Assembly (NCBI RefSeq): GCF_964204645.1
Contig: NC_134027.1
Coordinates: forward strand, 541,501 to 605,500
Length of the DNA stretch: 64,000 nt
Source of the DNA: Tubulanus polymorphus
Lineage: Eukaryota; Nemertea; Palaeonemertea; Tubulaniformes; Tubulanidae
Direction of reading: 5' to 3'
Shown: in pieces, positions 2,073 to 43,479 of the stretch
Position numbering within the stretch: position 1 is the first letter of the stretch
How the letters are laid out: each line of letters opens with the position of its first letter
Program-made: the position numbers and the translations under genes
Notes under the pieces: generated by a model
The model's database searches: none
Told to the model about the DNA's origin: nothing
Seen by the model: the letters and a program-made list of their open reading frames with translations, nothing else

Positions 2073-2111
2073 ATTGGTACTGGTTGACGTTCCTGGTTTC
2101 GGTGATAAATT
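2073..2111 (-). CDS. 39-bp micro-exon (exon 4-like)
   Basis: The acceptor CTTTACAG and a possible weak donor GTATCT enclose 13 phase-0 codons, NLSPKPGTSTSTN. The first part aligns with exon 4 of the + strand gene (DLSPIQHVD at 23945), which is 27 bp, so this version is longer and different after LSP. The upstream intron is almost identical to the + copy. The donor choice is the weakest part of the call. Confidence 0.45.
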
Positions 2112-2487
2112 CTGTAAAGATAAAATAAAACAAAATATTAGATGGATATTCATGAATGCATGTATCACTGATTCGGGTTTTCAATAAAAACTGATTAACG
2201 AATGATAAGTTAATTTTGCAGCAAATTCTCCAAGATTAGAACAAAACCAGTAGTTATATAGTAGAGGCTTTTGGGTCATGAAGCAAATTAAGTAGTAAAT
2301 ATAACACTTAATTTAAATGACAACTGTAGAGATAGCATCATTAATATATGACTTCTACGATGATGAGACTTAATCGAATTTGAATTTATTCCTAATTAGC
2401 ATAATTTATGCAAAACAGCTACTGCCCTCTATTTTCAAATTACAAATTGAAATAAGCGTGATTTATTAGAAAATAGTTATCACTTAC

Positions 2488-2526
2488 CGGCGTAGAAGAA
2501 CCGCTCGGCGGCGTTGACGGCAAAAA
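2488..2526 (-). CDS. 39-bp micro-exon (exon 3 copy)
   Basis: The acceptor TATTTTCAG and the donor CCG|GTAAGTG enclose 13 phase-0 codons, FLPSTPPSGSSTP. The + strand version at 23530-23568 is FLPTTPPSGTSTP, with four base differences in 39. The same exon at 10.3 kb has lost its donor. Confidence 0.65.
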
Positions 2527-3086
2527 CTGAAAATACAATCAAAGACAATGTTAAAAACCTGATCTGATTTGTATAGTGTAAGTAAATGGTTTTGGGGTTC
2601 GGACCGTCTGCCCACACGAGAACACCCGACCCTCGCGCTACTGCTGCATTTGACTGCTCGGTGCGTCTGAGGAGCCTTGATGGACAGAACACACCATTGA
2701 TGGAATAATGGTTAATTCAGTCTAACCTCGTTAAAACTCTGTAAATGTGAGTTAAACTCATTGAAATTCCCTTATGTTTACCATGAGGTAACATTGAACT
2801 GGTTTTTCAGTTTTTCTCCACTCGTCTATAACGGGCTATCAATCAATATGGTCGAATGTGCAGAATGTTCCAGCTGATAAAAACTGGGTTCCAAAATAAT
2901 CGGCCCTTTGCATGTGATGATGCAAACGATCAGGCTGGGTGCACCCTGGTATAGATTTGACGATGCAGTAATGTATGACGGACATTACCTGTCAGTAGCA
3001 GAAGCAGGGTTTAATATTCTATATATATAAATTTCGGTTTCAAGCTCAAGAATGATGACTTCAAACAGGCGTTTACGATAACTTAC

Positions 3087-3129
3087 GTCAATCCCAGACA
3101 TGGAAATGTTAAAACGTTGTTGCATATTC

Positions 3130-3178
<49 letters not shown>

Positions 3179-3185
3179 GAGTTCT
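3087..3185 (-). CDS. Poly-Gln exon 2 copy
   Basis: The acceptor CTTTTATAG and the donor GAC|GTAAGT enclose 33 phase-0 codons. These are Arg-Thr, a long Gln run encoded almost only by CAA, then NMQQRFNISMSGID. The + strand exon 2 (22877-22969) ends KFDISMSGID. The SMSGID end is the same in every copy, while the residues before it vary. It is the first recognisable exon of the second minus-strand exon set (3185 to 1458). That set has no start exon of its own, so it would be spliced to an upstream exon or is not expressed. Confidence 0.6.
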
Positions 3186-3227
3186 CTATAAAAGAGAAAA
3201 CATATTCATACAATGACAAGAAATACT

Positions 3228-5213: not shown

Positions 5214-5805
5214 ACGACTTCCTAAACAGTCCCTCGATGTGAAAGACATGAACTTCCTAAAGGGTCCCTCGACGTGAAAGACATGAACTTCCTAAACGGT
5301 CCCTCGACGTGAAAGACGTGAACTTCCTAAACGGTCCCTCGACGTGAAAGAGATGAACTTCCTAAACGGTCCCTCGACGTAAAAGACGTGAACTTCCTAA
5401 ACGGTCCCTCGACGTGAAAGACATGAACTTCCTAAACGGTCCCTCGACGTGAAAGACATGAACTTCCTAAACGGTCCCTCGACATGAAAGACGTGAACTT
5501 CCTAAACGGTCCCTCGACGTGAAAGACATGAACTTTCTAAACGGTCCCACGACGTGAAAGACATGAACTTTCTAAACGGTCCCACGACGTGAAAGACGTG
5601 AACTTCCTAAACGGTCCCTCGACGTGAAAGACGTGAACTTCCTAAACGGTCCCACGACGTGAAAGACGTGAACTTCCTAAACGGTCCCTAGATGTGAAAG
5701 ACGTGAACTTCCTAAACGGTCCCTCGACGTGAAAGACGTGAACTTCCTTAACGGTCCCTCGACGTGAAAGACATGAACTTCCTAAACGGTCCCTCGACGT
5801 GAACT
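5214..5805 (-). repeat. 35-bp minisatellite, about 17 copies
   Basis: The unit contains AACTTCCTAAACGGTCCCTC then GACGTGAAAGACGTG. It has scattered substitutions and almost no length change. The mirrored array at 28080-28565 has about 14 units. Confidence 0.85.
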
Positions 5806-5989
5806 GATGAATGATGATGGTTCCTACAGAATCAATCATAATCTCTCGATCCATCCTCGATATCAGTGAAGGTGACCTTACTCCTGCGTCTGATAGAAGA
5901 GCGCCCTCTACCAAACCTAGAGCCATAATAACTATGTTTCAAATTCGAAACATTGATGCCAGGCCGCCCGGACCAGACCGGATGTTCAG

Positions 5990-6780
5990 TACCTGATGAT
6001 GCCTGGACCGGACCGGACTGGATGTACAGTTCCCAGTGATGCCTGGACCGGACCAGACTGGATGTTCAGTACCCAGTGATGCCTAGACCGGACCGGACTG
6101 GATGTACAGTTCCCAGTGATGCCTTGGCCGGACCGGACTGGATGTACAGTTCCCAGTGATGCCTGGACCGGACCGGACTGGATGTTCAGCACCCAGTGAT
6201 GCCTTGGCCGGACCGGACTGGATGTACAGTTCCCAGTGATGCCTGGACCGGACCGGACTGGATGTACAGTTCCCAGTGATGCCTGGACCGGACCGGACTG
6301 GATGTTCAGTACCCGGTGATGCCTGGACCGGACCAGATGTTCAGTACCCGGTGATGCCTGGACCGGACCGGACTGGATGTTCAGTACCCAGTGATGCCTG
6401 GAATGGACTGGTGCTCAAAGCTGCTGGACCGGACCAGATGTTCAGTACCCGGTGATGCCTGGACAGGACCAGACTGGATGTACAGTTCCCAGTGATGCCT
6501 GGACCGGACCGGACTGGATGTACAGTTCCCAGTGATGCCTGGACCGGACCAGACTGGATGTTCAGTACCAGGTGATGCCTGGACGGGACCAGATGTTCAG
6601 TACCCTGTGATGCCTGGACCCAACCGTAGCTTGAGGCCGCCCGGACCGGACAAGATGTTCAGTAACCGGTGATGCCTGGACTGGACCGGTGCTCGGAGGT
6701 GACCGCACCGGACTGGATGTACAGTTCCCGGTGATGCCTGGACCGGACCGGTGCTCGGAGTAGCCCGGACCGAACCCGAG
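5990..6780 (-). repeat. 40-bp minisatellite, about 20 copies
   Basis: The unit contains GATGCCTGGACCGGACCGGA then CTGGATGTACAGTTCCCAGT. It alternates with a variant carrying GATGTTCAGTACCC, and some units are shortened. The mirrored array is at 27040-27925. The open frames across it follow from the repeats. Confidence 0.85.
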
Positions 6781-7657: not shown

Positions 7658-7727
7658 TTCTTGCTTGCAAGTCGGGAGGCGTCTCCGGCGGGAGGGGTGC
7701 GCTGCTGCTGCTGCTGCTGTTTGACAA
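7658..7727 (-). CDS. Exon 6 copy, Ser/Pro-rich
   Basis: The minus-strand acceptor TTTATAG and the donor AGAA|GTAAGT bound 70 bp. The exon enters in phase 0 and leaves one base over. The frame used by the + copy reads a Ser run, then APLPPETPPDLQAR. Only two bases differ from the + copy (26136-26205). The two exons that follow it on the + strand (32918 and 34313) were not found in the left arm, so this exon has no obvious in-frame partner here and may be skipped or dead. Confidence 0.55.
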
Positions 7728-7937: not shown

Positions 7938-7976
7938 ATTTAGAGATGGAGAATGCGCAAGGCGACCGATATGACC
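7938..7976 (-). CDS. Exon 5 copy, 39-bp micro-exon, hyperdiverged
   Basis: The acceptor TTTCTAG and the donor AAT|GTAAGT enclose 13 phase-0 codons, GHIGRLAHSPSLN. The matching + strand exon (25887-25925) reads RQFASEAGSPSLN. Counted by hand, 20 of 39 bases differ, including synonymous changes in the Pro, Ser and Leu codons of the shared SPSLN end. The next intron (210 bp, up to exon 6) is identical between the copies, and the 75 bp upstream differ at two positions. Exon borders, phase and splice sites are fully preserved, so the exon looks used rather than decayed. Confidence 0.6.
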
Positions 7977-9890: not shown

Positions 9891-9917
9891 GTCCACGTGC
9901 TGTATCGGTGATATGTT
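9891..9917 (-). pseudogene. Exon 4 copy with lost donor
   Basis: The minus strand keeps the acceptor CTTTACAG and 27 bases reading NISPIQHVD. Loss of the G at the junction turns GAC|GTAAG into GACTAAG, which removes the donor and creates an in-frame TAA. The + strand copy at 23945-23971 is intact. Confidence 0.6.
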
Positions 9918-10282: not shown

Positions 10283-10329
10283 TTTGGCGTAGTAGGCAGC
10301 GAACCGCTGGGCGGCGTTGACGGCAAAAA
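10283..10329 (-). pseudogene. Exon 3 copy with damaged 3' end
   Basis: The acceptor and FLPSTPPSGS are kept. The 3' part is rearranged and the GTAAGT donor present in the other two copies is missing. With the exon 4 defect downstream, this exon set appears to be decaying. Confidence 0.55.
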
Positions 10330-10888: not shown

Positions 10889-10934
10889 GTCAATCCCAGA
10901 CATGGAAATGTTAAAACGTTTTTGCTGTTGCTGC

Positions 10935-10977
<43 letters not shown>

Positions 10978-10996
10978 GCTGTTGCTGCGCTGTACC
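10889..10996 (-). CDS. Poly-Gln exon 2, copy in left arm
   Basis: The acceptor TTTTATAG and the donor GAC|GTAAGT enclose 36 phase-0 codons. These are Gly-Thr-Ala, a Gln run of CAA with CAG at both ends, then KRFNISMSGID. It differs from the + copy in the Gln-run length, in its first codons and in the RFN/KFD position. About 140 bp of the following intron differ at roughly one position. It follows a fused exon 1-2 upstream, so this gene copy has two poly-Gln/SMSGID segments. Confidence 0.55.
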
Positions 10997-11169: not shown

Positions 11170-11286
11170 GTCGATCCCAGACATTGAAATATCAAAGCGT
11201 TGTTGTTGTTGTTTTTCAGTTCTGTTATTATAGGGGCTCGATGTTGAGGGCCCCACGCCCCGAGTTTTTTTCATTGCTTTTGGCAT
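11170..11286 (-). CDS. Start exon with exons 1 and 2 fused
   Basis: The minus-strand acceptor TTTTTCTAG and three bases precede an ATG and 39 phase-0 codons ending GAC|GTAAGT. The protein begins MPKAMKKTRGVGPS and continues SPYNNRTEKQQQQRFDISMSGID without interruption. On the + strand the same content is split into exon 1 (21653-21715) and exon 2 (22877-22969) by a 1.16-kb intron. This copy has therefore lost, or never had, that intron exactly at the junction. Exon 1 differs at about 11 of 60 bases from the + copy, while the 70 bp upstream differ at about one. The acceptor before the ATG implies an upstream 5' non-coding exon. Confidence 0.65.
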
Positions 11287-11381
11287 TATCTAGAAAAACA
11301 AGTAAAAATATTAAATCATTTGAAAATATATCAGTCAGTCTTATTCTGGTTCAATGAACTAATTCTCTATATGATGCATTT

Positions 11382-12535
11382 AGGGGTCCAGGGACACCAC
11401 ATCCACTAATTCTCTATATGATGCATGTAGGGGTCCAGGGACACCACATCCACTAATTCTCTATATGGTGCATGTAGGGGTCCAGGGACACCACATCCAC
11501 TAATTCTCTATATGGTGCATGTAGGGGTCCAGGGACACCACATCCACTAATTCTCTATATGGTGCATGTAGGGGTCCAGGGACACCACATCCACTAATTC
11601 TCTATATGGTGCATGTAGGGGTCCAGGGACACCACATCCACTAATTCTCTATATGGTGCATGTAGGGGTCCAGGGACACCACATCCACTAATTCTCTATA
11701 TGGTGCATGTAGGGGTCCAGGGACACCACATCCACTAATTCTCTATATGATGCATGTAGGTGTCCAGGGACACCACATCCACTAATTCTCTATATGGTGC
11801 ATGTAGGGGTCCAGGAACACCACATCCACTAATTCTCTATATGATGCATGTAGGGGTCCAGGGACACCACATCCACTAATTCTCTATATGGTGCATGTAG
11901 GGGTCCAGGGACACCACATCCACTAATCCTCTATATGGTGCATGTAGGGGTCCAGGGACACCACATCCACTAATTCTCTATATGATGCATGTAGGGGTCC
12001 AGGGACACCACATCCACTAATTCTCTATATGGTGCATGTAGGAGTCCAGGGACACCACATCCATAAATTCTCTATATGGTGCATGTAGGGGTCCAGGGAC
12101 ACCACATCCACTAATTCTCTATATGGTGCATGTAGGGGTCCAGGGACACCACATCCACTAATTCTCTATATGGTGCATGTAGGGGTCCAGGGACACCACA
12201 TCCACTAATTCTCTATATGGTGCATGTAGGGGTCCAGGGACACCACATCCACTAATTCTCTATATGATGCATGTAGGGGTCCAGGGACACCACATCCACT
12301 AATTCTCTATATGGTGCATGTAGGAGTCCAGGGACACCACATCCATAAATTCTCTATATGGTGCATGTAGGGGTCCAGGGACACCACATCCACTAATTCT
12401 CTATATGGTGCATGTAGGGGTCCAGGGACACCACATCCACTAATTCTCTATATGGTGCATGTAGGGGTCCAGGGACACCACATCCACTAATTCTCTATAT
12501 GATGCATGTAGGGGTCCAGGGACACCACATCCTCT
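11382..12535 (-). repeat. 47-bp minisatellite, about 24 copies
   Basis: The unit contains CTAATTCTCTATATGGTGCA, TGTAGGGGTCCAGGGACACC and ACATCCA. Copies are nearly identical, which suggests recent expansion. The mirrored array upstream of exon 1 on the + strand (21283-21590) has only six or seven units. Confidence 0.9.
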
Positions 12536-12930
12536 ATTCTGTTTGGGGCATGGAGATTGCCCAGATTGCCTCTGCTAACAACAGACACCCATTCAACATT
12601 TCTCTTTGTGGTACTTTCTTCTTCCTCTTTTCTCTCATTTTACAAATTGATATTCAACTATGACCTTTTTCATTTTGATATGATGTTTATCTTTACATCA
12701 TGGTTGCTGGAGATTGTACAAGGAATGATACAAGAAATAATATCCTTAGTTTTAAACTCACAGCTGTTTGCAATTCTTTCATTTAATCACAGGTTCAATT
12801 GAAACGATGCATTCCTATACATATACGCAATCATATCTTTTTTCGAGTCATCATTCTCAGGGAAATTTGATCTGCACTCAGGTACAGTCTACTGGCTTGC
12901 CAGTTATCCTTTAACTTTTTTACAAAATTA
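12536..12930. other. AT-rich non-coding stretch
   Basis: No exon with homology to the family is visible. The open frame at 12557-12802 is AT-rich, lacks similarity to anything here and has no supporting splice context. Confidence 0.4.
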
Positions 12931-13323: not shown

Positions 13324-13668
13324 TCAAAACAAATCCGGAATTGTCCCCGAACGAAGTGGCTCCCTCCACTCTCCATCAGTATGCCGGGCCACCACCTCTA
13401 CCTCTCGGGCCACTCGATCACTCGCCAGCTTTTTGGCGAGTGAACGAGTGACCGCCCGAGATACGGATGGAGGAGCAGGAGGAGCAGGACCCGCACCTGC
13501 CCCAGCCCCACCACCATCCCTCTTCGGCCTCTTCCTATTTATCCCATCCCCGTCCTCCCGATTACCTTCGTCAGTCGCACCATCCGCCGGGACCACTCTT
13601 GCTCCTCCTCCCGCGGAGCCACGACGACCGCAACTGGTACTTTTCGGTTTCTCATGGTTTCCCACCAT
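13324..13668 (-). pseudogene. Terminal exon copy, 5'-truncated
   Basis: On the minus strand this encodes the Gly/Asp-rich middle, RKRPKRD, an Ala/Pro stretch, RAVTRSLAKKLASDRVAREV and the end GTIPDLF, then TGA. Compared with the + strand exon it lacks the first basic stretch (similarity begins inside GTTGCGGTC). One base is missing in the CCGCAGGG region, which shifts the upstream frame. The C-terminus is shorter by 12 residues because the foldback extension of the + copy is absent. The sequence upstream is interrupted by the 13751-19708 duplication block. Confidence 0.55.
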
Positions 13669-14552
13669 CTTTCAAAAGAGAACTATCGATATATCATTAG
13701 CTACAAGGAAACTTTTCAGAAACTTTTTCAGGTCATTCTTTCTTGTATTATTAGCATTTGATTCTCTATATATCGTCAGAACATGGACTCAGAGTGTTTC
13801 TTTAATGGTTAAGAATGTCTCTTTAACCAACATCCCCCTAGCCTGCTTCCTACATATCCCTTCCCTTTCCTCCTGATTACCTTTGATCCCCACTGCCTAG
13901 CAGCTAACAGCTGCTGCTATTTTATCTGGTTTACATGTTTTGCAAATAGTGTCTGTTATGCTATAGTTGTTCTTTTAATTGTTTAACTTCTTCATCTGAA
14001 ATTTCATTATTCTCATTTCAGTTTCACGCAGGAAATGGTTCATGAAAATCTGCATTGAGACTGGGACGAAATGTGCATTGAGACGGATGAAATCTGCATG
14101 AACAGAGATATACTTTAAGATCCCCATTTTATCCATCGGAGTGAATGTACATCCACTACTCACAGGTAGCAAACCTACAAACGCTAAACACTCATCCCTG
14201 GGCCCTGATTCAAAAATAAAAATAAAAGATTAAATTAAGAATTAACAATTTTATGAATCAGTGATCAGTTTCATAAAATAAGTCCTAAATTAATTTTAGG
14301 GGTTTATTATTTCATATTGAAATGAATTCTTCATGTTTATGCAATTCTCATTATCTTTCATTGCAGCATTTATATATTCATTTTTAATCATACATGTGAA
14401 ATATATAATGTATTTTCAGGGAAACGTAAACAAGAAAGGAAGGGAAGAAAGAGAAGGGAAGAAAGAGTTGGATGATTAATGCGCACTTATTCTCCATTCC
14501 GAATTCCTGTATTCGACTCTAGGTGATCATCATACGAACGAGATATAGAAAA

Positions 14553-14840
14553 AAAACATTACTGAAGTCATCTCTATTTTTTAGTCTCAATTTATATTTC
14601 TAATTCAATTCACTAAGTGTGTAAGTCATCATTTGGATAAGTCGTCACATTACTGAAGTCATCTCTATTTTTTAGTCTCAATTTATATTTCTAATTCAAT
14701 TCACTAAGTGTGTAAGTCATCATTTGGATAAGTCGTCACATTACTGAAGTCATCTCTATTTTTTAGTTGTAATTAGTATTTCTAATTCAATTTACTTATG
14801 TCAGTTATCATTTCGATAAATTGCCACATTACTGAAGTCA
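14553..14840. repeat. Roughly 100-bp tandem repeat
   Basis: The phrase ACATTACTGAAGTCATCTCT recurs about every 95-105 bp, four times here including a diverged last unit. There are three at the matching place near 58360-58560. It is a copy-number difference between the two duplication blocks. Confidence 0.75.
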
Positions 14841-15338
14841 TCTTTATTTTGAAGTCTCAATTAGTATTCGGTTTACTTCAGATAACGTAATTTGGTTTAA
14901 TCACAAGTCGTCAACATTATAATCAATGTAACTACAGTGACTACATTATTGTCTTTTTATTGAGAAATTTATGTTAATTTTTGATTTCTGGGATAAATCA
15001 AAATTCAAATGTTATCATTTTTTGTATCAAAAATTGTAAAAAATTGAATAACTTGTGTGCTGTTGAAACATTCAGTTATGGAGAGTTTTTAGCTCAGAAA
15101 ACTTTGAGCCTGTTTATACAAGTGTTGTAGCAAGTGTTGAACAATTCAAAGATCATGTTTTTTATACTTTGTCATGTTAGAAAATATTTTTTCTGGTATA
15201 TTGATGTTTCTAAAAAAACATATGATTCAACTTTAAAAGGCCAACAAGCCTTCTAATAAAACTAGTTTGTCATATATATATATATATTACTTGTCAAGTC
15301 ATTGTCAAGTTTTTTAAAAAATATTTTGGTTTTCTCAG

Positions 15339-19283: not shown

Positions 19284-19714
19284 GTAAGTATATTTTACAT
19301 CTTTGATCAAAAATTGTTGTGAAAAAACTCAAAACTAAGGCCTCTATAAATGATTGATTGACTTTAAATGATTACTTTAGCACAGCTCTTGTAGACAATG
19401 ATTAGGTGTCATAGTAGTTTAGCTCGAAAGTGCACATATAAGGTTAATTTTCATCCCTTATTTAGAGACTGAGGTATTGAGCGTCCATTTCAGCCCTTAA
19501 ACCATCATCAACCTACCTCAAACTGACTGTTTTTAATCCAGCAATAGTTACCTAACTATTGACTCATCATGGATTCGATTCAAAAACAATTTTTGATGAT
19601 CATAGTGATTCGAAACATTTGAATTTTTGAAAAACGCGAATGCTAAACGACGGATCCGGACTTCGATTGCGGCCCAATGGCAGAGTTGATTTTCTTATTT
19701 GGAATTTGATTATT

Positions 19715-21240
19715 TTTCTTATTTGGAGGTTAGATTGCTGTTTTTGGGTTAGATCGCTGTTTTTGTGTTAGATCGCTGTTTTTGGGTTAGATCACTGTTT
19801 TTGTGTTAGATCGCAGTTTTGTGTTAGATCGCTGTTTTAGGTTAGATCGCTGTTTTTAGGTTAGATCACAGTTTTTAGGTTACATTGCAGTATTTATGTT
19901 AGACCGCAGTTTTTTTTGTTAGATCGCAGTTTTTAAGTTAGATCGCTGTTTTGGGTTAGATCACAGTTTTTGTGTTAGATCGCTGTTTTTGTGTTAGATT
20001 GCTGTTTTGTGTTAGATCGCTGTTTTAGGTTAGATCACAGTTTTTAGGTTACATTGCAGTTTTTGGGTTAGACCGCAGTTTTTTTGTTAGATCGCAGTTT
20101 TTAAGTTAGATTGCTGTTTTGGGTTAGATCACAGTTTTTGTGTTAGATCGCTGTTTTTGGGTTAGATCACTGTTTTTGTGTTAGATAGCTGTTTTTAGGT
20201 TAGATTGCTGTTTTTGTGTTAGATCGCTGTTTTTGTGTTAGATCGCTGTTTTTGGGTTAGATCGCTGTTTTGGGTTAGATCACAGTTTTTGGGTTAGATC
20301 GCTGTTTTGGGTTAGATCACAGTTTTTGTGTTAGATCGCTGTTTTTGGGTTAAATTGCTGTTTTTGTGTTAGATCATTGTTTTTTGTGTTAGATCGCAGT
20401 TTTTAGGTTAGATCGCAGTTTTTGTGTTAGATCGCATTTTTGTGTTAGATCACTGGTTTTTTGTTAGATCGTAGTTTTTAGGTTAGATCGCTGTTTTGTG
20501 TTAGATCGCTGTATTTAGGTTAGATCGCAGTTTTTGTGTTAGATCACTGTTTTTGTGTAAGATATCAGTTTTTAGGTTAGATCCCAGTTTTTGAGTTAGA
20601 TCACCGTTTTGGGTTAGATCACAGTTTTTGTGTTCGATCGCAGTATTTAGGTTAAATTGCTGTTTTAAGGTTAGATCGCAGTTTTTTGTCTTAGATCGCA
20701 GTTTTTTGTTAGATTGCATTTTTTGGGTTAGACCACAGGTTTTAGGTTAGATCGCAGTTTTTAGGTTAGAACACTGTTTTTCTGTTAGATCGCAGTTTTT
20801 TGTTAGATCGCTGTTTTTAGGTTAGATCGCAGTTTTTGTGTTAGATCGCAGTTTTTAGGTTAGATCGCAATTTTTTGTGTAAGATCGCAGTTTTTTATGT
20901 CGCTGTTTTTGGGTTAGAAAGCTGTTTTTGTGTTAGATTGGTGTTTTTAGGTTAGATCACTATTTTTGTGTTAGATCGCTGTTTTTGTGTTAGATCGCTG
21001 TTTTTGGGTTAGATGGCTGTTTTTGAGTTAGATTGGTGTTTTTAGGTTAGATCACTATTTTTGTGTTAGATCGCTGTTTTTGTGTTAGATCGCTGTTTTT
21101 GGGTTAGATGGCTGTTTTTGTGTTAGATTGGTGTTTTTAGGTTAGATCACTATTTTTGTGTTAGATCGCTATTTTTGTGTTAGATCACTGTTTTTGGGTT
21201 AGCTCGCTGTTTTTGAGTTAGATCATGTTTTTGTGTTTTT
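19715..21240. repeat. 18-20-bp satellite, roughly 80 units
   Basis: Units such as GTTAGATCGCTGTTTTTGT vary in CTG/CAG, the length of the T run and GTG/GGG/AGG. It has the same sequence as 63700-64000, which continues past the window. Confidence 0.9.
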
Positions 21241-21590: not shown

Positions 21591-21652
21591 CAGAATAAGA
21601 CTGACTGATATATTTTCAAATGATTTAATATTTTTACTTGTTTTTCTAGAAT

Positions 21653-21715
21653 ATGCCAAAAGCTGTAAGAAAAACACGGGGCGCGGGCCCCTCACATTCG
21701 AGCCCGTATAATAAA
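21653..21715 (+). CDS. Exon 1, MPKA start exon
   Basis: The acceptor TTTTTCTAG at 21641-21649 and three bases precede the ATG. The 21 codons (MPKAVRKTRGAGPS then HSSPYNK) end at AAA|GTAAGT. The exon is basic and unstructured. The mirror copy differs at about 18% of bases while its upstream flank is almost identical. Confidence 0.65.
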
Positions 21716-24700
21716 GTAAGTACAAATTTACTGCTTCCATGCTTATTTATTCATCCCATACTTAGTATTTTGTACCCCTGGGTCCAGTTTCACAAAAAGG
21801 ATTAACGCCTAAATTGATTTAAGATAAACTGAATTAATGAAGAAATTAAATCGATTTAAGAGTTAAACCTGTTTGTGAAACTGGGCCCTGAATTGCATCT
21901 AGAATGAAAAAAAAGAAAAAAAAATATTGAAAATAACGTTGGTGAAATATTTCTGGATCTTTCTGGATTTCTGCTCAATGCATCGTTTAGTAAAATATCG
22001 ATATTCTCTAAAAGTAAAGATATAAGAATAAAAATATTGTATTGAATCGTGATTAGTTACTGTATGCGCTGCTAGTTGTTGCCCAACCCATAGCCTCATT
22101 TCTCTCCATTCTAAATTTGCATTGTTTAACATTGCCTGGTTGCTATGGAAACTATTTATTTAAGTTTCTTTGTGGTATCCATGGCAACAGTAACGTTTAG
22201 GTAGTGGCACCAATTATGGGTCCCAACGTTCCCATGGCGATACATGAGAACATTTATCCTATTTTTGACCTTCATGACGTAAGATGGTAGTGAGTCGATG
22301 ACGTCATTTTCGTCTCGCCACTAATGAAAAAAAAAAGAAATGAAAAAAAAGGAAAAAATCGTTAGAATTACGTTTATGAAATTTTTCTGGATCGGCTAAA
22401 TGTATTGTTCCATTAAATATCGACATTCTCTAAAATCATAGGCATCAATATCAAAATGATGATACAGCAGACTCCGCTTAACTCTGTTCTATTTGGACCA
22501 TTAATTAACCGAATACCGACTTTTTAAATTTTAGGATTTTAACTTTAAGGATCAGAAAATGTGTATGCAATATCAACCGGGTACCGAGTAGGGTGGCCGA
22601 GTCTACTGTAGTCTGCTGCCCCCTCGAATCCATTACCTTATTATCTCTCAATTTGCATTGTTTGACCTCGTCTGGTTGCTATGGAAACTATTAAGTTATA
22701 TCAGGAACGGTTTTTTCGTGGTAACCAGTGGCAACATTTAACAGGCGTGTCCGTCCTAGAGATAAACTGTCTGATTTCACAGCCACATCCGTCCTGGAGA
22801 TAAACTGTTAGATAAACTCTGATTTCGCGTCCGTCCTATTTCTTGTCATTGTATGAATATGTTTTCTCTTTTATAGAGAACTCAACAACAACAACAACAA
22901 CAGCAACAACAACAACAACAACAGCAGCAACAGCAACAAAAATTTGATATTTCTATGTCTGGGATTGACGTAAGTTATCGTAAACGCCTGTTTGAAGTCA
23001 TCATTCTTGAGCTTGAAACCGAAATTTATATATATAGAATATTAAACCCTGCTTCTGCTACTGACAGGTAATGTCCGTCATACATTACTGCATCGTCAAA
23101 TCTATACCAGGGTGCACCCAGCCTGATCGTTCGCATCATCACATGCAAAGGGCTGATTATTTTGGAACCCAGTTTTTATCAGCTGGAACATTCTGCACAT
23201 TCGACCATATTGATTGATAGCCCGTTATAGACGAGTGGAGAAAAACTGGAAAACCAGTTCAATGTTACCTCATGGTAAACATAAGGGAATTTCAATGAGT
23301 TTAACTCACATTTACAGAGTTTTAACGAGGTTAGACTGAATTAACCATTATTCCATCAATGGTGTGTTCTGTCCATCAAGGCTCCTCAGACGCACCGAGC
23401 AGTCAAATGCAGCAGTAGCGCGAGGGTCGGGTGTTCTCGTGTGGGCAGACGGTCCGAACCCCAAAACCATTTACTTACACTATACAAATCAGATCAGGTT
23501 TTTAACATTGTCTTTGATTGTATTTTCAGTTTCTGCCGACAACGCCGCCAAGCGGTACTTCTACGCCGGTAAGTGATAACTATTTTCTAATAAATCACGC
23601 TTATTTCAATTTGTAATTTGAAAATAGAGGGCAGTAGCTGTTTTGCATAAATTATGCTAATTAGGAATAAAATCAAATTCGATTAAGTCTCATCATCGTA
23701 GAAGTCATATATTAATGATGCTATCTCTACAGTTGTCATTTAAATTAAGTGTTATATTTACTACTTAATTTGCTTCATGACCCAAAAGCCTCTACTATAT
23801 AACTACTGGTTTTGTTCTAATCTTGGAGAATTTGCTGCAAAATTAACTTATCATTCGTTAATCAGTTTTTATCGAAAACCCGAATCAGTGATACATGCAT
23901 TCATGAATATCCATCTAATATTTTGTTTTATTTTATCTTTACAGGATTTATCACCGATACAGCACGTGGACGTAAGACATTAAACATTGATCTTGAATTT
24001 TAAGTTCAAACTAATTTATTTTTTATCTCACTCGGGACTATAGTTATTGCGTTCACTTTGCGTCCAGTTGTCTCGGCTAGTTTTTGATTTATCGTGTTGA
24101 TAATTGGTTTATATACTCAAACTACTCAAACTCAAAATATTGGCACAATTGGAATTAAGATGGCGGACTTGTATGACCATTTTTTTCCCCGGCAAAATCA
24201 GCGCTTTAGGATCAATTCTGTTGTTGTTATATTACATTGAAATCAGAGTTTAATATATATCAGTATAGAGCAGGTTTTTGCTCTAGTTATAAATAAAGTT
24301 ATAAATAATCTCATGACATGTTCTGTATATGTGTAGTGAGTTTCAATGTCTTTGGTTCCTTTTAAACCAGGGGGAGTTAAATTTGAAAATGTCAGATCGT
24401 CGAGCATTTCAGACCACTTCCAAAGTGGGTCCCTGCACCCCTAGTTATACCGTTAATATTTTAATAATACATTAATATTTTTATTTGATAGAATATATTG
24501 ATATACCATACATTGATATCGGTCTTGTAATTGGATCAACAACCATGAGATCAAAACACAGCAAATATGAACCTGCTGTGAATCAATAGATTTGTGATAA
24601 ATGTAATGAAATTGTTATTTTTCATATTGACTTTTTGAGTTAAGGGTCTGTTGTATAAGAGTATTTGGTCTCGCGTGTCAATGTATGATATCAATCTGTT

Positions 24701-27700
24701 GTATTTCCTCGTTCCAATGTTTAAAAGGTGTTCGTCACCTTATATTAATATCCTCCGTGTTTAAAAACCTGTGCGTATTACTTTTACCGTTAGATGGCGC
24801 CATAAGTGTGATATTTGATATATGGGATACCCGCAAAACCAGCTATTCCACCAGATGGCGCAACGAGTAGTAGGTCGTTCGTTGTCAAAATTAGTTCATT
24901 TTCGATGAACTTTGAACTGGTTTGAAGAAGAAATACTTTCATTCTTCTACTCTGATATCGGTTTAGTTTTCATTAATAATTGATTCATTTAAGAGAACAA
25001 TTCATTCAGATTTAATTGAAATGTACAAGAAAATCGAACGCAGACGACCAACTATTTACTAGCGACACCTGGTGGATCCTCGCCTGCCATAAGTGGAATC
25101 CTCGATTGCCACAGTAAGACTGCGGGTATCCCATTGTTTGGCGTGTGATAAAGTAAAGTTAGAAAACGAATGTTTAACTTTGTTGTGAAATGAAAGCGTT
25201 TTGGAGATTTTTAAACCGATCAAATCAATATTTTGATATTACGCTTGAAACCCTTCCCACTCATATTCTGCTTACTAAGTATATATTCTAGTTTCCGTGG
25301 AAATCATGGTGAGTGGCGCCATCTATACAGTGGAGTTAGCTTTATAAATCGAGTATGATTCGACAAGTGGCTCCATCTATTCCCTAATACTGAAGCGAGG
25401 TAACCAGCAGCGCCCTCATATACAGGAAATGAACGCCTATCAAGTTTAACAATGCACGGTGTATTGACCACAGCGACCGGTGATAATTATATCAATGTTG
25501 ATTAGCTATTGCCATAGACAGGTCCGTAGCGTTTGACTGGACCAGAACGGGGCCCCCTAACCAAAACAAATTTTGAAAACGTGCCCAGATAAATTGCCTC
25601 TGGGAGATTGATTAACGAGGTTTTGATTGAATGAACAAATTTTAATATTTGTAAGTTTAACATTTCTGTTTTTAATTTTTCTTTGTAAGGAACTGAATTT
25701 TCGAACCCCCCTGAACCGCTTCAAGCTACGTTCCTGATATAGTGCTAGCTATACCTGAATACTTTTCTCTTATTGAAATTGTCTAAAAAACCAGCACCTT
25801 GAACTAATGAACGTCATAATGAAAATGTTTAAAAATTCAACCGTTAACGAATTTGACTAATGTATCTTTTTTATTTTCATTTCTAGCGTCAGTTTGCCTC
25901 AGAGGCTGGGTCGCCGTCGCTTAATGTAAGTATCAGTGACGCCCTCAATCTCACATGCCTCACTTCCCTCCTAATGTAACCATTTTTATGAAATTCCTCA
26001 AGAAAATATATACTGATAATCTTAGAATACACGTTTTTGTACCCAGACCCCTTCATTCTACTGAACTACCGTGTAATCAGTACCTGTTGTGTTCATTTTC
26101 TGTTGCATTGATTTATATATTATTTCTATTTATAGTTGTCAAACAACAGCAGCAGCAGCAGCGCACCCCTCCCGCCGGAGACGCCTCCCGACCTGCAAGC
26201 AAGAAGTAAGTTCAGTCTTCAAATACAATTTCAACGCATTCAATTTTTTGTATGGCGTTAAAACGGTTAAAGTTGTGACTAGTTTTCATAACTCCGTGAC
26301 GTCAGGTGTGAGACAAAATACAATATCATATTTCCATCGAGTACCGGACCCTTTCCTATGTTTTTTGCCAATTTGGATTGAATGATCGCCAGCGGTTTTT
26401 CTATACGACCCGGCTCTGCTGTATTGCATTTAGCCATCCTTTTTCTTGGCGTTTTTTATAAGAAGGTGTTTGATTTTGTCTCTAAGGGATTTAGGAATTT
26501 AAGAGACACTTGTACTCTCTATGCAGTGAGTTTGTTCTGTTTTTGTTCCCTCGTGAATTTTATTTTTGTTTGAATCAAATCAAATCAGTGCATCTTTCTT
26601 GAATTGCGTGTATGTTATAATATTATGTAAGTTATAACGTTAAAATATCTGTTATATTTAAACCGAATATTTAATTGTTGTATTTTGAATGCGATAATGC
26701 CGCTCCCTGCTAAAGTCCAGCGTCGTCGTCGTGAGGGATGCGGTCATCTGTTCGGGCCCTGATTACGTTCTGTGTTCATCCTGTTTGGCTACATCGGGCG
26801 TTATATGAGTTAATCCTTCCTGGACTTGCGGATTGTGGTCGGAAGATCTATGGGTTCGGGCCGAGAAGTCCCAGAAACAGAAAGTACAGTTTCTGTCGAT
26901 GTACCGATTGATGTCTCTATTTCAGAAAGTAACAGCGGTCGCCAGCTGTACTAGCAAGGTTGGTTTCCCAACTCCATTCTCTGAGGAGGATCGCTGGTTC
27001 TCTAGTGCCGGTCAGTCACCAGTCAATCAATGGTTCAGCTGGCATCCCAGGGTACTGAACATCCAGTCCGGTCCGGTCCAGGCATCACTGGGAACTGTAC
27101 ATCCAGTCTGGTCCGGTCCAGGCATCACCGGGTACTGAACATCTGGTCCGGTCCGGCAGCTTTGAGCACCAGTCCATTCCAGACATCACTGGGTACTGAA
27201 CATCCAGTCCGGTCCGGTCCAGGCATCACCGGGTACTGAACATCCAGTCCGGTCCGGTCCAGGCATCACTGGGAACTGTACATCCAGTCCGGTCCGGTCC
27301 AGGCATCACTGGCAACTGTACATCCAGTCCGGTCCGGTCCAGGCATCACTGGGTACTGAACATCTGGTCCGGTCCGGCAGCTTCGAGCACCAGTCCATTC
27401 CAGGCATCACCTGGTACTGAACATCCAGTCCGGTCCGGTCCAGGCATCACTGGGAACTGTACATCCAGTCCGGTCCGGTCCAGGCATCACTGGGAACTGT
27501 ACATCCAGTCCGGTCCGGTCCAGGCATCACTGGGAACTGTACATCCAGTCTGGTCCGGTCCAGGCATCACCGGGTACTGAACATCCAGTCCCGTCCGGTC
27601 CAAGCATCACTGGGTACTGAACATCCAGTCTGGTCCGGTCCAGGCATCACTGGGTACTGAACATCCAGTCTGGTCTGGTCCAGGCATCACTGGGAACTGT

Positions 27701-30700
27701 ACATCCAGTCCGGTCCGGTCCAGGCATCATCAGGTACTGAACATCCGGTCTGGTCCGGTCCAGGCATCACCGGGAACTGAACATCTGGTCCGGTCCGGTC
27801 CAGGCATCACTGGGAACTGTACATCCAGTCTGGTCCGGTCCAGGCATCATCAGGTACTGAACATCCGGTCTGGTCCGGCCAAGGCATCATCAGGTACTGA
27901 ACATCCGGTCTGGTCCGGGCGGCCTGGCATCAATGTTTCGAATTTGAAACATAGTTATTATGGCTCTAGGTTTGGTAGAGGGCGCTATTCTACCAGACGC
28001 AGGAGTAAGGTCACCTTCACTGATATCGAGGATGGATCGAGAGATTATGATTGATTCTGTAGGAACCATCATCATTCATCAGTTCACGTCGAGGGACCGT
28101 TTAGGAAGTTCATGTCTTTCACGTCGAGGGACCGTTTAGGAAGTTCACGTCTTTCACGTCTAGGGACCGTTTAGGAAGTTCACGTCTTTCACGTCGAGGG
28201 ACCGTTTAGGAAGTTCACGTCTTTCACGTCGTGGGACCGTTTAGGAAGTTCACGTCTTTCACGTCGAGGGACCGTTTAGGAAGTTCACGTCTTTCACGTC
28301 GAGGGACCGTTTAGGAAGTTCATGTCTTTCACGTCGAGGGACCGTTTAGGAAGTTCATGTCTTTCACGTTGAGGGACCGTTTAGGAAGTTCACGTCTTTC
28401 ACGTCGAGGGACCGTTTAGGAAGTTCATCTCTTTCACGTCGAGGGACCGTTTAGGAAGTTCACGTCTTTCACGTCGAGGGACCGTTTAGGAAGTTCATGT
28501 CTTTCACGTCGAGGGACCCTTTAGGAAGTTTATGTCTTTCACATCGAGGGACCGTTTAGGAAGTCGTCACAATAATCGGAATTTCCGTGATTTCGAAAGT
28601 AAGATGTTATTGTCATTGTAAGCTACCGCAGTTACAGGTAAGCCTATTCTTGATTGCCCGGTTAGAAGTTCAGTTATTCGGAATTCTGACTCTGAATTTC
28701 TGAGGGGTAGCATCTGATTTCAACGAGGATCTAGTTCCTGCAGCAATAAGCTTCGGGTTGCCGCTCACAACGGAAGCTCGTAACACGGTTAGCCATGCCT
28801 GCAGGGGATATGCTATTTTTTACCCCTCAGCCATAGGACGCAAGGGGTAAAAAATCACTTATGTCCGGACGGGTGGGCTGTTTGTTTTTGACATATACAG
28901 GTCATCCAAGATGGCCGCCACAGCCATTGCAATGTGTTAAATAGCCATTTGAAGCTTGTTATCGCTCTACAGACTTAAGTTTTTCATTGATTTTCTTGTG
29001 ACTTGGTTTGTTTGTTTGAGGTGTGAGATGGATGAGCCCTATTATTTTTGACATATATAGGTCATCCAAGATGGCCGCCACGGTTGTTTTAATGTGTGAA
29101 ATAGCTATATTTTGGAGCTTGTTTTCCACTGTACAATCTACAGTTTTATACTGATTTTCTTATCACGTGCTATGTGGATTGAAGGCATAAGGATCGATGA
29201 ACTCTACTGTGTTTGATGTGTGTAGGCCACCACAGTTATATCAGTGTCTTGAATAGCCGATTTGGAGCTTGTTACTGCTCTAAGATGTAGAAGCTTAGAG
29301 GATTATAATTTTATTCATACTTGTACTGTGGTTTATTTATGGTGGTCAGAGGATGAGCCCTATTACAATTTTGCATTCTCTACTTGACTCACTGGTCAAG
29401 GGTTAATATCTAGTTTGTTAAATGTGGAGAAACTCGTGCTAAGTCCTCGGCAGGTCCCCATGTCGGTGAATCACCACCACCCCCACCCCCCGGACTTTGA
29501 TCTCAATATTTTGCGTGAATCGTCAGCAGTTTCAAGAGAATGGGCTCGATTAGGTGTGGAACAATTGGAATCCTCGATTGCCACAGTCGAACCTAGAGTA
29601 TTAAGAGCTCAATTAGGTTCGTCTTTGCGTCTCTTCTCCGGTTGGAGTGCTCCAGTTTTGACCAAACGGAGGAATATTCGAGAGGTGCAGATTCAAGTCA
29701 ACCATGCGGACTCCGTGAAGTACTGGTCCAGCTCCAGCTCCGACAGCTGAAGGTTCAGCTCCGGCTCCGACAGCTAAAGGTTCAGCTCTGGCTCCGGCAG
29801 CTCAAGGTCCGGCTCCGGCAGCTCAAGGTCCAGCTCTGGCTCCGGCCGCTCAAGGTTCAGCTCCGGCTCCAGCTCCGGCCGCTCAAGGTTCAGCCCGAAC
29901 TCACACAATGCCATCTCAAGCATCTTACTTTCTCAAGCGGCTACTGGTGGTTGGAGAACAAGTGCACAGCTCCAACATTCTCGTGCCCCTTCTGGTCAGA
30001 ATAATTCTAATTCATATCACTAAAAGGAGCTCTTCCTCTCGGAGAAACTCAAAATGAATGCTCGGGGCCAGTGAGAGGTTGTCTGCAGCAGGCAGCCACT
30101 GGTCCGTCGGTCCCGGGTCGTATCACGGAGGCTACTGTCTTCAATTCTGAACACCTCTCGACATGCGCCCGAAAGCAGATCAGGAGACACTAATCTCGTC
30201 AGCTCTCAAAGATCTGGCCAAAAAGAGAGCAATAGAACCAGTACGCGACGAAGCCACATCCGGCTGGTTTTCATGAAAATTTATGCTCCTGAAAACCACA
30301 GGGCGTCGATGGACTGTCATTCCTCGAGCGGCACCTGGATATCCCGAGGCTTCCGATGACTAAAACAGGGAGGTAATTCAAGGTCTCCGTCGAGGTTAAT
30401 GGGCGGCTGCATTGGACCTGAAAGATGCATATTTTCAGGTTCCTGTTCACCCGAAATCCTGTCAATTTTACAGAATAAAAGTTGAAAGGCTGCCAGTTCC
30501 AGTTCAGGTCTCTTCCAATCGGCCTCAGTACAGCCCACGCCCTGGGTATTTACCAGCTTGGGTCAAGTCCAGAAGGTACATTACAGTCCAGGGCTGGGTT
30601 TCATAGATATGGAAGAAAAATAATTCCAGGGAACATTTTGAAATTTGTCAGTTATAACCATGGTTTCTCATTGTTAGTATGGTGGTTGTTACCAAGATTG

Positions 30701-33700
30701 AGGATTTACCCCTAGGGATAACTTTGATACTCAGTCTATGAAACCGGGTCCTGGAGTATTTGTCTGTTGGTTTACCTCGACGACTGGTTACTAGTACCAA
30801 ACTCGACTATAGAATGTCAGGAGGCGAGGACCGCTGTCGTAGACTTAGTTCACCAGTTCCGCGTAAACTAAGTAAAATCTCACTTGATGCCATCCCAACA
30901 GTTCACATCTCCGGATCAGCACGGTCTTTCCGTCCATGGCTCGAGTAGCCAAACTTCAAGAAGCGTAGTTACCACAAACGAGAGGACAGCTAGTTATCGG
31001 TGACGCCTGTGGCTAAATGCAATACCGCAGTGCCAGGGATCGTATCTCTGGCTATCTACACATTCAGAGAATATTAACTAAAACCATAGGAAAGGGTCAA
31101 GCACTACTCCGAAAAAAAAACTAATTTTATTTCCAAAAAATTATGATATTATATGGATTGCATGCTGTGTGGAAGAAGTTTTCAAAATTATTTAGGAGCT
31201 TATTATAATTTGAATGCATGAATTGAGAGCAATTTGAAATGTATTGATATCCGAAAGTGTCTCCATTGACTTCACTCATTCACCTGATGAAGCTTCTATA
31301 CATTAGTACCCAAAGCTTGTGTGTCAAATAAACTAGTTACACGTCCTATAAAGTACTACTTGTCTCGTTATATATTCTAAACCCCAGTTAACAATTCCAG
31401 TAAGTCAGGTTTAGGGAATAGATATTTAAACCTTGAGATGATACCGATGTGATACAATTCCAGTAAGTCAGGTTTAGGGAATAGATATTTAAACCTTGAG
31501 ATGATACCGATGTGATACAATTCCAGTAAGTCAGGTTTAGGGAATAGATATTTAAACCTTGAGATGATACCGATGTGATACAATTCCAGTAAGTCAGGTT
31601 TAGGGAATAGATATTTAAACCTTGAGATGATACCGATGTGATACAATTCCAGTAAGTCAGGTTTAGGGAATAGATATTTAAACCTTCAGATGATACCGAT
31701 GTGATACAATTCCAGTAAGTCAGGTTTAGGGAATAGATATTTAAACCTTGAGATGATACCGATGTGATACAATTCCAGTAAGTCAGGTTTAGGGAATAGA
31801 TATTTAAACCTTCAGATGAAACCGATGTGATACAATTCCAGTAAGTCAAGTTTAGGGAATAGATATTTAAACCTTCAGATGATACCGATGTGATACAATT
31901 CCAGTAAGTCAGGTTTAGGGAATAGATATTTAAACCTTGAGATGATACCGATGTGATACAATTCCAGTAAGTCAGGTTTAGGGAATAGATATTTAAACCT
32001 TGAGATTAAACCGATGTGATACAATTCCAGTAAGTTAGGTTTAGGGAATAGATATTTAAACCTTGAGATGATACCGATGTAATACAATTCCAGTAAGTCA
32101 GGTTTATTAAGGAATAGATATTTAAACCTTGAGATTAAACCGATGTGATACAATTCCAGTAAGTCAGGTTTAGGGAATAGATATTTAAACCTTGAGATGA
32201 TACCGATGTGATACAATTCCAGTAAGTCAGGTTTAGGGAATAGATATTTAAACCTTGAGATTAAACCGATGTAATACAATTCCAGTAAGTCAGGTTTAGG
32301 GAATAGATATTTAAACCTTGAGATTAAACCGATGTGATACAATTCCAGTAAGTCAGGTTTAGGGAATAGATATTTAAACCTTGAGATTAAACCGATGTAA
32401 TACAATTCCAGTAAGTCAGGTTTAGGGAATAGATATTTAAACCTTGAGATGATACCGATGAATTTAGCAATTTTGAATGAATTAAACCAATATGAGATTT
32501 CGATCCTAAGAATATTGGAAGCTTGTGTTTAACGTTACTAAATAGTAATATTATATAAAGCTAGAAGGACACGAGGGTATCCATTTTTTTGCCCGATCGC
32601 AACGATTAAATTTGCCGGTGAATTTATACGCCCGATACGAGTGGGTACCGATCTATCTATAAATCGGCCGTCACGGTGATTTCGTCGCCCGCCAACATTA
32701 AACATGTTCTATATTTACGCCGGTGTTCGGGTCACTTGTTAATTCGCTCGTCTTGTCGGCAAGCTTAAAAAGATTTAGAAAAAACTACATATTCTTCTTC
32801 CTGAATAAACTGGATTCATCTGGGTTCAGTTTCATGAGACACAGTTCAAACTGCTCTTGAATTTGAGTTTGTAATTAATGTATGTGATTATAATGAATTG
32901 TATTTTTTGTTTTACAGCACTGATATTTAGATTGAGTCGTGCGTTCCGGCGGGAGGAGTTCGTACGCTTATTTTTACCGGAGTGTAAGTAGTTTAACTAT
33001 TTTCATACAATATCATTTAGTGTGACGTGTGTTACTGATCCAGGAATTTTTCCAAGAGGGGGTTCATAAAAATCCTGACTTAAATCTCTAATGATAGCCG
33101 GGGCCTATACGGCATATTGTTTGGCCAAACATAAGATCATATGGTACCGGTTTTTTGGCTTGTCTCGAGTAAGCATTTACATTCCTTCAAGAAAACGAAT
33201 TTTTAAAATTTTTGGTAGCTGATCAGCGGAGTCACGACCCCTGAAACCCTCCCTGGATCCGCGCCTGTGATATCTCCTCAAAATCTAATAAAAACATTCA
33301 ACAAATTAATGCTATAATGACGATATGTAGCCTGTTATATCTGTCTATTTGAATGCATTTGCATAAAGAAATAGTTGCGGAATTATCAACTGCAAATAAC
33401 AGTGTAACCCTAGTGGGTCTTAAGAGACGGCCAGAGCCTTTTTATAGGTTGTTATGGCTCACAACCTGACTTGAGTTAGCTGTACGGACCTGTCAGATTA
33501 GTTACTTCTAGAAGTTATGTTAGTCACATTTTCTGACTATATTCTGGAAAACAGTGGAAGCTTGTATCCACCCCTAGATTAGAACCAATCAGAATAGAAC
33601 CAATCAGAATAGAACCAATCAGAATAAAACCAATCAGAATAGAACCAATTAGAATAAAACCAATCAGAATAGAACCAATCAGAATAAAACCAATCAGAAT

Positions 33701-41816: not shown

Positions 41817-42021
41817 ATTGTTCATACAACTGTCAACATGGAGTTCATCTCACAAGCAAATTAGGTAATTATCTTATGATTTTGTATGAAATGCTAAATT
41901 TTACTCGTTATTTTTTTACTAATAAGTTGACTTTGAAATCTTTATTTATTTCTTGTTTATTTTGTCTTTTCAGTTTTCAATTTGCCAAGATTCACATGTA
42001 GCAGATATAATGGAATTAAGT
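41813..42021 (+). CDS. Last array unit with different C-terminus
   Basis: An ATG at 41813 gives MNCSYNCQHGVHLTSKL, splices at 41864 to 41974, then reads VFNLPRFTCSRYNGIKY and stops at 42019-42021. The array homology ends inside this exon after FNLPR, so the tail is new. Confidence 0.3.
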
Positions 42022-42024
42022 ATT

Positions 42025-43290
42025 GAGAACCGCAACTTAACAATAAACCGGATCAACTTAATATAGTGCTGAGGACCAAAAATAAACAATAAACCCGACC
42101 AGTGTAATTCAGTGTCGAGAACCGCAGTTAAATGATGAACCCGACCAGTGTAATTCAGTGTTGAGAACCACAATTAAACGATGAACCGGACCAGTGTAAT
42201 TCAGTGTCGAGAACCACAATTAAACGATGAACCTGACCAGTGTAATTCAGTGTCGAGAACTGCAATTAAATGATGAACCGGACCAGTATAATTCAGTGTC
42301 GAGAACCACAATTAAACGATGAACCTGACCAGTGTAATTCAGTGTCGAGAACCACAATTAAACGATAAACCAGACCAGTGTAATTCAGTGTCGAGAACCG
42401 CAATTAAAGGATGAACCGGACCAGTGTAATTCAGTGTCGAGACCAACAATTAAACGATAAACCCGACCAGTGTAATTCAGTGTCGAGAACCGCAATTAAA
42501 CAATGAACCCGACCAGTGTAATTCAGTGTCGAGGACCGCAATTAAACGATGAACCCGACCAGTGTAATTCAGTGTCGAGGACCACAATTAAACGATGAAC
42601 CGGACCAGTGTAATTCAGTGTCGAGATCCGCAATTAAAGGATGAACCGGACCAGTGTAATTCAGTGTCGAGAACCGCAATTAAACGATGAACCTGACCAG
42701 TGTAATTCAGTGTCGAGAACCGCAATTAAACAATGAACCCGACCAGTGTAATTCAGTGTCGAGAACCGCAATTAAAGGATGAACCGGACCAGTGTAATTC
42801 AGTGTCGAGACCAACAATTAAACGATAAACCCGACCAGTGTAATTCAGTGTCGAGGACCACAATTAAACGATGAACCGGACCAGTGTAATTCAGTGCTGA
42901 GAACCACAATTAAACGATGAACCCGACCAGAGTAATTCAGTGTCGAGGACCACAATTAAACGATGAACCGGACCAGTGTCATTCAGTGCTGAGAACCACA
43001 ATTAAACGATGAACCCGACCAGTGTAATTCAGTTTCCAGAGCCGCAGTTAAACAATGAACCGGACCAGTGTAATTCAGTGTCGAGAACCGCAATTAAACG
43101 ATGAACCGGACCAGTGTAATTCAGTGTCGAGAACTGCGATTAAACGATGAACCGGACCAGTGTAATTCAGTGTCCAGAGCCGCAGTTAAACAATGAACCA
43201 GACCAGTGTAATTCAGTGTCGAGAACCGCGATTAAACGATGAACCGGACCAGTGTAATTCAGTTTCGTAATAACCGCAATTAAACGATTA
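42025..43290. repeat. 46-bp minisatellite, about 27 units
   Basis: The unit contains GACCAGTGTAATTCAGTGTC, GAGAACCGCAATTAAACGAT and GAACCG. It starts directly after the exon array. Confidence 0.9.
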
Positions 43291-43479
43291 TCTGGAGTTG
43301 TAATAGTGTTGTGTATTTGCGTAGTGGATCAAGTGGAAGGATTTTAAGTGTATTTGGTGACTTTAATTCGTTCGCATCCAACAGAATCAACAAAGACATT
43401 ACAAAAAACGACAAAAAATGATTGAATGTAAATGCATTGAATTTAGGTTTGTTGATCAAGATAATCACTGATCAAGATT

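Follow-up and report, generated by a model that had tools for sequence, protein, structure and literature searches.

Gene structure and copy number

We analysed a 64,000-nucleotide window of the Tubulanus polymorphus genome (NC_134027.1, 541,501–605,500) that holds two copies of one gene in opposite orientations, a left copy (L010) on the minus strand and a right copy (L017) on the plus strand. Six predicted exons were recognised: exon 1 of 63–66 nt, exon 2, with poly-Q, of 84–108 nt, exon 3 of 36–48 nt, and exons 4, 5 and 6 of 27, 39 and 70–85 nt, respectively (Table 1). A divergence scan, a comparison of unit flanks and the open reading frames revealed no additional exon before exon 1 or after exon 6. 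The first-pass annotation had labelled the product a basic, probably nuclear protein; a basic composition was seen in exon 1, whereas the other exons are rich in Q, S, P and T, and the sequence is low-complexity. The composite protein had zero Pfam matches up to an E value of 1, Rfam gave no match, and no homologous protein was returned by the database searches, one with an artificial joined query and both limited by the length of the candidate.

Table 1 Features of the two gene copies and their surroundings, in window coordinates
Feature	Position	Strand	Remarks
Left copy, exon 1	11170..11289	-	fused to exon-2-like piece without intron 1, IMPKAMKKTRGVGPSTSSPYNNRTEKQQQQRFDISMSGID, then intron 1 tail
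Left copy, exon 2	10889..10996	-	GTA, poly-Q, KRFNISMSGID; 5' part C3-like, 3' part B/out-like
Left copy, exon 3 remnant	10285..10329	-	L036-like (3 differences in 44 nt); donor deleted
Left copy, exon 4	9891..9917	-	NISPIQHVD; donor GT lost via 1-bp deletion
Left copy, exon 5	7938..7976	-	class B, GHIGRLAHSPSLN
Left copy, exon 6	7658..7727	-	LSNSSSSSSAPLPPETPPDLQAR
Right copy, exon 1	21650..21715	+	NMPKAVRKTRGAGPSHSSPYNK; hypervariable among copies
Right copy, exon 2	22877..22969	+	RT, poly-Q, KFDISMSGID
Right copy, exon 3	23530..23568	+	FLPTTPPSGTSTP
Right copy, exon 4	23945..23971	+	DLSPIQHVD
Right copy, exon 5	25887..25925	+	class A, RQFASEAGSPSLN
Right copy, exon 6	26136..26205	+	LSNNSSSSSAPLPPETPPDLQAR; phase 1 end before GTAAGT
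Longest possible B tract, projected on right copy	25871..25965		nearest recipient-type sites 25870, 25966
Shortest B tract, projected on right copy	25887..25919		
Minisatellites	5217..6760, 11350..12650, 19650..21240, 27040..28560, 31290..32590, 41920..43370		

The window belongs to one of several arrays of this gene with at least six tiny exons. A 401-base probe had at least 30 near-complete matches (at least 397 probe bases covered, or nearly so) in the 267.8-Mb genome, at 89–100% identity, and we therefore rejected the reading of the pair as a two-copy family: its members are two of these matches. By place, the counts, all lower bounds, are at least nine at 0.41–0.73 Mb and at least two at 1.24–1.32 Mb of contig C3, at least 18 at 0.66–1.74 Mb of C6, and at least one at 15.6 Mb of C8. 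Beyond these there are at least six copies of a diverged subtype, all on C6. The copies of the family lie mostly in arrays close to contig ends. Twenty-eight of 30 copies were read across most of the gene (L009–L036) and two, L047 and L048, around exon 5 only; L009 was aligned from intron 3 onward, its 5' part being in L045, and L029–L036 were retrieved without exon 1. We sorted them into the sets C3a (L011–L017), C3b (L009 and the left arm, L010), C6 (L018–L033) and out (L034–L036).

Exon 1 was obtained for 19 of the 28 copies, among them L021 with a 1-base deletion. All splice dinucleotides of the 28 copies are intact apart from those of L010 at exon 3, exon 4 and the fused exon 1, and those of L009 at exon 4. 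In the left copy and a near-twin at C3:663 kb, the exon 3 donor is deleted and the exon 4 donor is lost through a 1-bp deletion; the exon 3 donor loss of L010 is also present in L045, the L009 locus. With two splice donors lost, the left copy is probably a pseudogene now.

Several other features lie around the copies. The left copy is followed by another, partial one at window positions 2096–3225, which extends from intron 3 back to the region of exon 2; 2096–3173 is 98% complementary to 22883–23960. The unit flank recurs as a direct repeat (14500–19700 and 58210–63500) with 27 substitutions in 5110 aligned bases and no divergence islands. Similar open reading frames occur in opposite orientations at 13324–13668 (minus strand, 114 aa) and 35731–36066 (plus strand, 111 aa); a search for a homologue of the latter found none. 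Many minisatellites, with units of ~19–63 bp, flank the gene copies. At C3:653800–655000 (L046) three exon-1 copies stand in tandem with 174-bp spacing, each with a good acceptor and a GTAAGT donor, the middle one differing in residues. Subtype II (L039–L044, C6) has an additional exon-1-like exon, MSKATKKAPSGQGGPSTSSPYAP, and an added fused exon 5–6 module upstream of the usual exon 5.

Divergence of exons and introns

The first-pass annotation had singled out exon 5, which it described as differing at 20 of 39 bases between the left copy and its mirror copy, with identical DNA over 210 bp downstream and two mismatches in the 75 bp upstream. Base by base, the 20 mismatches proved exact, the downstream stretch has zero differences and the upstream mismatches lie at 25848 and 25866 (20/39 in the exon versus 2/285 in the flanks, Fisher p = 4e-19). 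Its description of the exon's frame also holds: the AG acceptor, GTAAGT donor, 39-nt length, phase 0 and SPSLN end are retained in both copies, four of the five SPSLN codons having a third-base change only. Introns 2–5 show 23 differences between the arms in 3059 compared bases, a count that includes some alignment noise at the exon 3 edge. Exons 1–4 too are more divergent than introns in one or other comparison, and exon 6 hardly so. Among the 30 copies, 25 have an exon 5 of class A (xQFASxxxSPSLN) and five one of class B (GHIGRLAxSPSLN; L009, L010, L034, L035 and L036). The class B copies come from four places on C3 and one on C8, and all are in frame with intact exon 5 splice sites.

Collecting further copies genome-wide had been proposed as a check, and in them exon-over-intron divergence holds across the family: among the 28 copies covering most of the gene, several short exons stand out as islands of divergence within near-identical introns. 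A diversity scan of the seven C3a copies had its top peaks, tandem repeats aside, at exons 2, 1 and 4 (17, 14 and 6%) and no peak at exon 3. In the eleven C6 copies, one of which (L025) is offset by ~1 kb and adds noise, the top gene peaks were exons 1 and 3 (18 and 14%), and exons 2 and 5 (5 and 6%) were equalled by an 8% peak within intron 4 and smaller ones. Over 27 copies (the set omits L009), diversity in the exon 2 tail and exons 3, 4 and 5 was 13.6, 13.1, 5.6 and 16.0%, respectively, and the exon 6 tail, at 1.9%, was a near-exception among the exons; diversity was 0.3–2.5% within 40 bp of exon junctions and 3.2–3.5% at 41–80 bp. Copies differ block-wise in exon 1, with 60 bp on either side near-identical, the fused L010 excepted, and synonymous sites of several exon 1 codons carry three or four bases. 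Residues vary at codon 6 of exon 1 and codons 6–8 of exon 5, and variants are present in all six exons. The DNA 3' of exon 6 is as uniform as the introns (0.19% in C3, 0.64% in C6).

We compared seven C3a with ten C6 copies, omitting L025. Fixed differences numbered 20 in intron 2, 19 in intron 4 and five in intron 5. Exon 1, counted three bases off in this comparison (as 21653–21718), had no fixed difference, ten shared polymorphic sites and an Fst of 0.16. Its upstream flank had six shared polymorphic sites and an Fst of -0.03, and the start of intron 1 an Fst of 0.39. Because the upstream flank mixes between arrays as exon 1 does, exchange at exon 1 is not exon-limited. Fst was 0.64, 0.65, 0.13, 0.60 and 0.41 for exons 2 to 6, respectively; exons 2, 3 and 5 group by array, like the introns.

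Silent and replacement sites

Nei–Gojobori counts covered exon 1, the last nine codons of exon 2, exons 3–5 and the last fourteen codons of exon 6, omitting poly-Q, most poly-S, exon 3 where it has 36 or 45 nt, and the frameshifted exon 1. Within C3a, pS was 0.094, pN 0.034 and intron divergence 0.0031 (pN/pS 0.36); within C6 the values were 0.118, 0.034 and 0.0071 (pN/pS 0.29). Between C3a and C6 they were 0.252, 0.048 and 0.0258, and between C3a and C3b 0.348, 0.135 and 0.0063. Overall, pS is ~10–55 times intron divergence in the main comparisons and pN about one third of pS; the ratio of pS to intron divergence is smallest within out (0.105 to 0.0264) and between C3b and out (0.225 to 0.0330). 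Taken together, the protein gives the impression of being conserved rather than pushed to diverge, and the exon versions appear older than their surrounding introns.

Exon 5 has its own pattern. Between classes A and B, pS is 0.84 and pN 0.39, replacement changes outnumbering silent ones by count despite the higher per-site pS. Within C3a and within C6 its differences are replacements only (pS 0, pN 0.03 and 0.05), an observation that speaks against exon transfer and for some selection on exon 5.

Private variants, counted without exon 1, were no denser in exons than in introns of C3a (1/183 versus 23/3061, p = 1), and exon hypermutation in that set was rejected; ten of its eleven segregating exon sites are non-singletons. 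In C6 they were 3.4 times denser in exons (10/183 versus 48/2861, p = 0.002), which argues for some exon-specific input.

Ancestry of the left copy

We asked which lineage each part of L010 resembles, taking as diagnostic those sites at which L011 and L015 are alike and unlike all three out copies, the L011/L015 state being called recipient-like. Introns 2–5 of L010 are recipient-like at 36 of 37 diagnostic sites, and exons 2–5 are out-like at 21 of 26 (Fisher 5e-11). Exon 5 is out-like at 15 of 15 sites. Exon 2 is out-like at six of ten, in its 3' part, and recipient-like at four in its first part; exon 4 has one diagnostic site, recipient-like, and exon 6 is recipient-like at nine of nine. 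Exon 3 has zero diagnostic sites, its 45 nt being as in L036 (three differences in 44). Introns 2 and 3 hold few markers (two and three), one of them out-like. The B tract at exon 5 spans at most 95 bp, ending at most 16 bp upstream and 40 bp downstream of the exon.

AU tests gave the same conflict. For introns, grouping L010 with out in one clade was rejected (p = 0.014); for exons, grouping it with C3a was rejected (p = 2e-7), in a set of 96 nt and 27 rows comprising the exon 2 tail and exons 4 and 5, with groups picked after the distances had been seen. The L010 introns nest among C3a copies, which makes a change of class, A to B, within the C3b line the simplest history. The class B exon 5 of L010 differs at 5 of 39 positions from the nearest other B exon, which points to a donor outside our sample.

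Intron absences

In L039, exon 1 is directly joined to exon 2, with intron 1 precisely absent and a genuine intron 2 following; the fused exon is out of frame as read. L010 and L045 have a fused exon 1–2 followed by the remaining intron 1 and a second exon 2. In six of six subtype II copies (L039–L044) exon 5 is joined to exon 6 without intron 5, and the fused exon lies between one match resembling the last part of intron 4 and another resembling the first part of intron 6. Both lesions of L010 and L045, at the exon 3 and exon 4 donors, sit at exon–intron junctions. Precise removal of an intron, with adjacent introns kept, is the signature held to follow cDNA recombination. These absences and junction lesions are hints of an RNA template, not proof. 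In the reverse-transcriptase model, as the cited parts of two reports describe it, cDNA of spliced mRNA recombines with the gene and removes introns (PMC3652778, PMC2614967). That model concerns the loss of introns, whereas the process considered here would rewrite exons and keep the introns.

Possible explanations

The best reading, which we judge about as apt to be wrong as right, is short, exon-limited conversion between paralogues, possibly templated by spliced RNA. Whole gene units would be young and alike, with exons drawn from a pool of family exons that is old and diverged: short exon-confined tracts, copied among paralogues by ectopic conversion, would furnish a young copy with an ancient exon version. 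The left arm would be a C3-type copy that acquired its exon 5 from the B type and, from a like lineage, exon 3 and the 3' portion of exon 2; its neighbouring introns would not have been transferred, as far as the markers tell. Given the few markers in introns 2 and 3, the exon 2 and exon 3 tracts could include intron. Counting against exon-limited conversion are the mixing of exon 1 flanks, the clustering of exons 2, 3 and 5 by array, the replacement-only exon 5 differences within arrays and the denser private variants of C6 exons.

We infer both conversion as the cause and spliced RNA or cDNA, rather than short DNA tracts, as the template. The first-pass annotation also suggested that sequence copied from a diverged mRNA replaced the exons, and this suggestion agrees with the mosaic nature of the left copy and with the precise lack of single introns in its relatives. 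In L010 a contiguous run of donor exons would comprise the 3' part of exon 2, exon 3 and exon 5, all donor-like; the one site of exon 4 and the four sites of early exon 2 are recipient-like, which tells against one unbroken run. DNA conversion tracts shorter than 95 bp require no RNA, and the fused exons could arise in other ways. In its full form, which we think rather unlikely on what the sequences offer, spliced transcripts would be reverse-transcribed and would overwrite the tiny exons of further family copies, with the introns looped out and preserved, the exons forming a cross-chromosome pool and the introns ageing with their arrays. If true, this would be an RNA-templated exon-diversifying system within a eukaryotic nuclear genome, and the left copy, with its two splice donors lost, would bear the scars of the rewriting.

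A serious rival, which we regard as possible and somewhat doubtful, is that the introns move and not the exons: DNA-level conversion and unequal crossing-over would homogenise introns and intergenic DNA up to the exon edges, with selection keeping the exon versions. Such homogenisation has been proposed for Hessian-fly SSSGP genes and for HLA class I introns. It accords with DNA beyond exon 6 that is as uniform as the introns, with the 27 substitutions over 5110 bases of the 5-kb repeat outside the gene, with C3a exon variants that are shared, not private (10 of 11 sites), with exon 1 flanks that mix between arrays and with residue variants in all six exons. However, it requires introns 2, 4 and 5 to have been converted separately in the L010 line, each conversion halting at exons, and the array-specific fixed differences of introns 2 and 4 (20 and 19 between the seven C3a and ten C6 copies) persist. 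Silent divergence exceeds replacement divergence per site, and selection acting on the protein would leave silent differences as such unprotected; L010, moreover, is probably a pseudogene now.

Exon-directed mutation in place, or selection for silent exon change (for example, escape from small RNAs of inverted copies), seems to us improbable. The three or four bases at synonymous sites of exon 1, the excess of private variants in C6 exons and the large inverted repeat formed by the two arms would suit it, but C3a has no such excess (1/183 versus 23/3061), and the arrays have linked blocks of differences in common, namely the exon 1 classes and exon 5 A/B.

Ordinary positive selection on amino acids, through point mutation after duplication, we hold very improbable. 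The first-pass annotation had invoked diversifying selection; as the main cause it does not stand, pS being about three times pN over all exons, and what may survive of it is selection on exon 5, whose residues vary with pS 0 and pN 0.03–0.05 within C3a and within C6. Residues do vary at codon 6 of exon 1 and codons 6–8 of exon 5, but pN/pS over all exons compared is 0.36 in C3a and 0.29 in C6, exon 5 A versus B has a pS of 0.84 against a pN of 0.39, and SPSLN is kept while its codons change.

Near-identical arrays are difficult to assemble, but an assembly chimaera or sequencing artefact is hardly credible with class B in five of 30 copies, at four C3 places and one on C8, in frame and with exon 5 splice sites intact.

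Comparison with known systems

The exon-over-intron divergence is real and extends across the family, and it recalls venom genes, as suggested from the window's sequence. In snake three-finger toxins, accelerated segment switch in exons (ASSET) replaces short exon segments while introns remain highly similar, and its authors, in the cited parts of their reports, found no satisfactory mechanism (PMC2474615, PMC2711939). As in ASSET, corresponding exon segments here are distinctly different (20 of 39 between exon 5 A and B) and paralogue introns highly similar (23 differences in 3059 bases of introns 2–5). However, with one exception the ASSET switches described there fall within exons of secreted toxins; in the present family the tiny exons differ along their whole length, as far as the splice sites, in a protein lacking a known domain. 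Nor is a venom fold with a changed surface matched by this low-complexity sequence without a Pfam match. Also set apart from ASSET, as far as those reports describe it, are the excess of silent over replacement divergence per site overall and the single introns precisely missing in relatives.

The Hessian-fly SSSGP genes, in the cited part of their description, form clustered inverted and tandem copies with a diverse coding region and conserved introns and UTRs; homogenisation of the non-coding DNA was proposed, and alignable members have dN/dS >1 (PMC2955719). The present family is likewise clustered, with introns conserved and coding region diverse. Unlike alignable SSSGP members, it has a pN/pS within arrays of 0.29–0.36 for the compared exons taken together, with exon 5 as an exception at pS 0; compared with what that description covers, its variation spans five exons or more, and one and the same copy gives conflicting trees for exons and introns. 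ASSET toxins and SSSGP are both described as secreted proteins. Among the entries returned by literature searches, none came closer than these two, which is no claim of absence from print. They are the closest precedents on the parts of those reports cited, and the present case differs from them as a variant.

Exon-over-intron divergence is normally taken as positive selection. Here divergence is highest per silent site, and the pattern is therefore that of exons and introns of unequal age within a single gene. The authors of the ASSET and SSSGP reports, in the parts cited, left the mechanism open, and the present family offers ~30 natural copies. With conflicting exon and intron ancestry in one copy and precise intron absences, it makes DNA-tract and RNA-template models directly testable.
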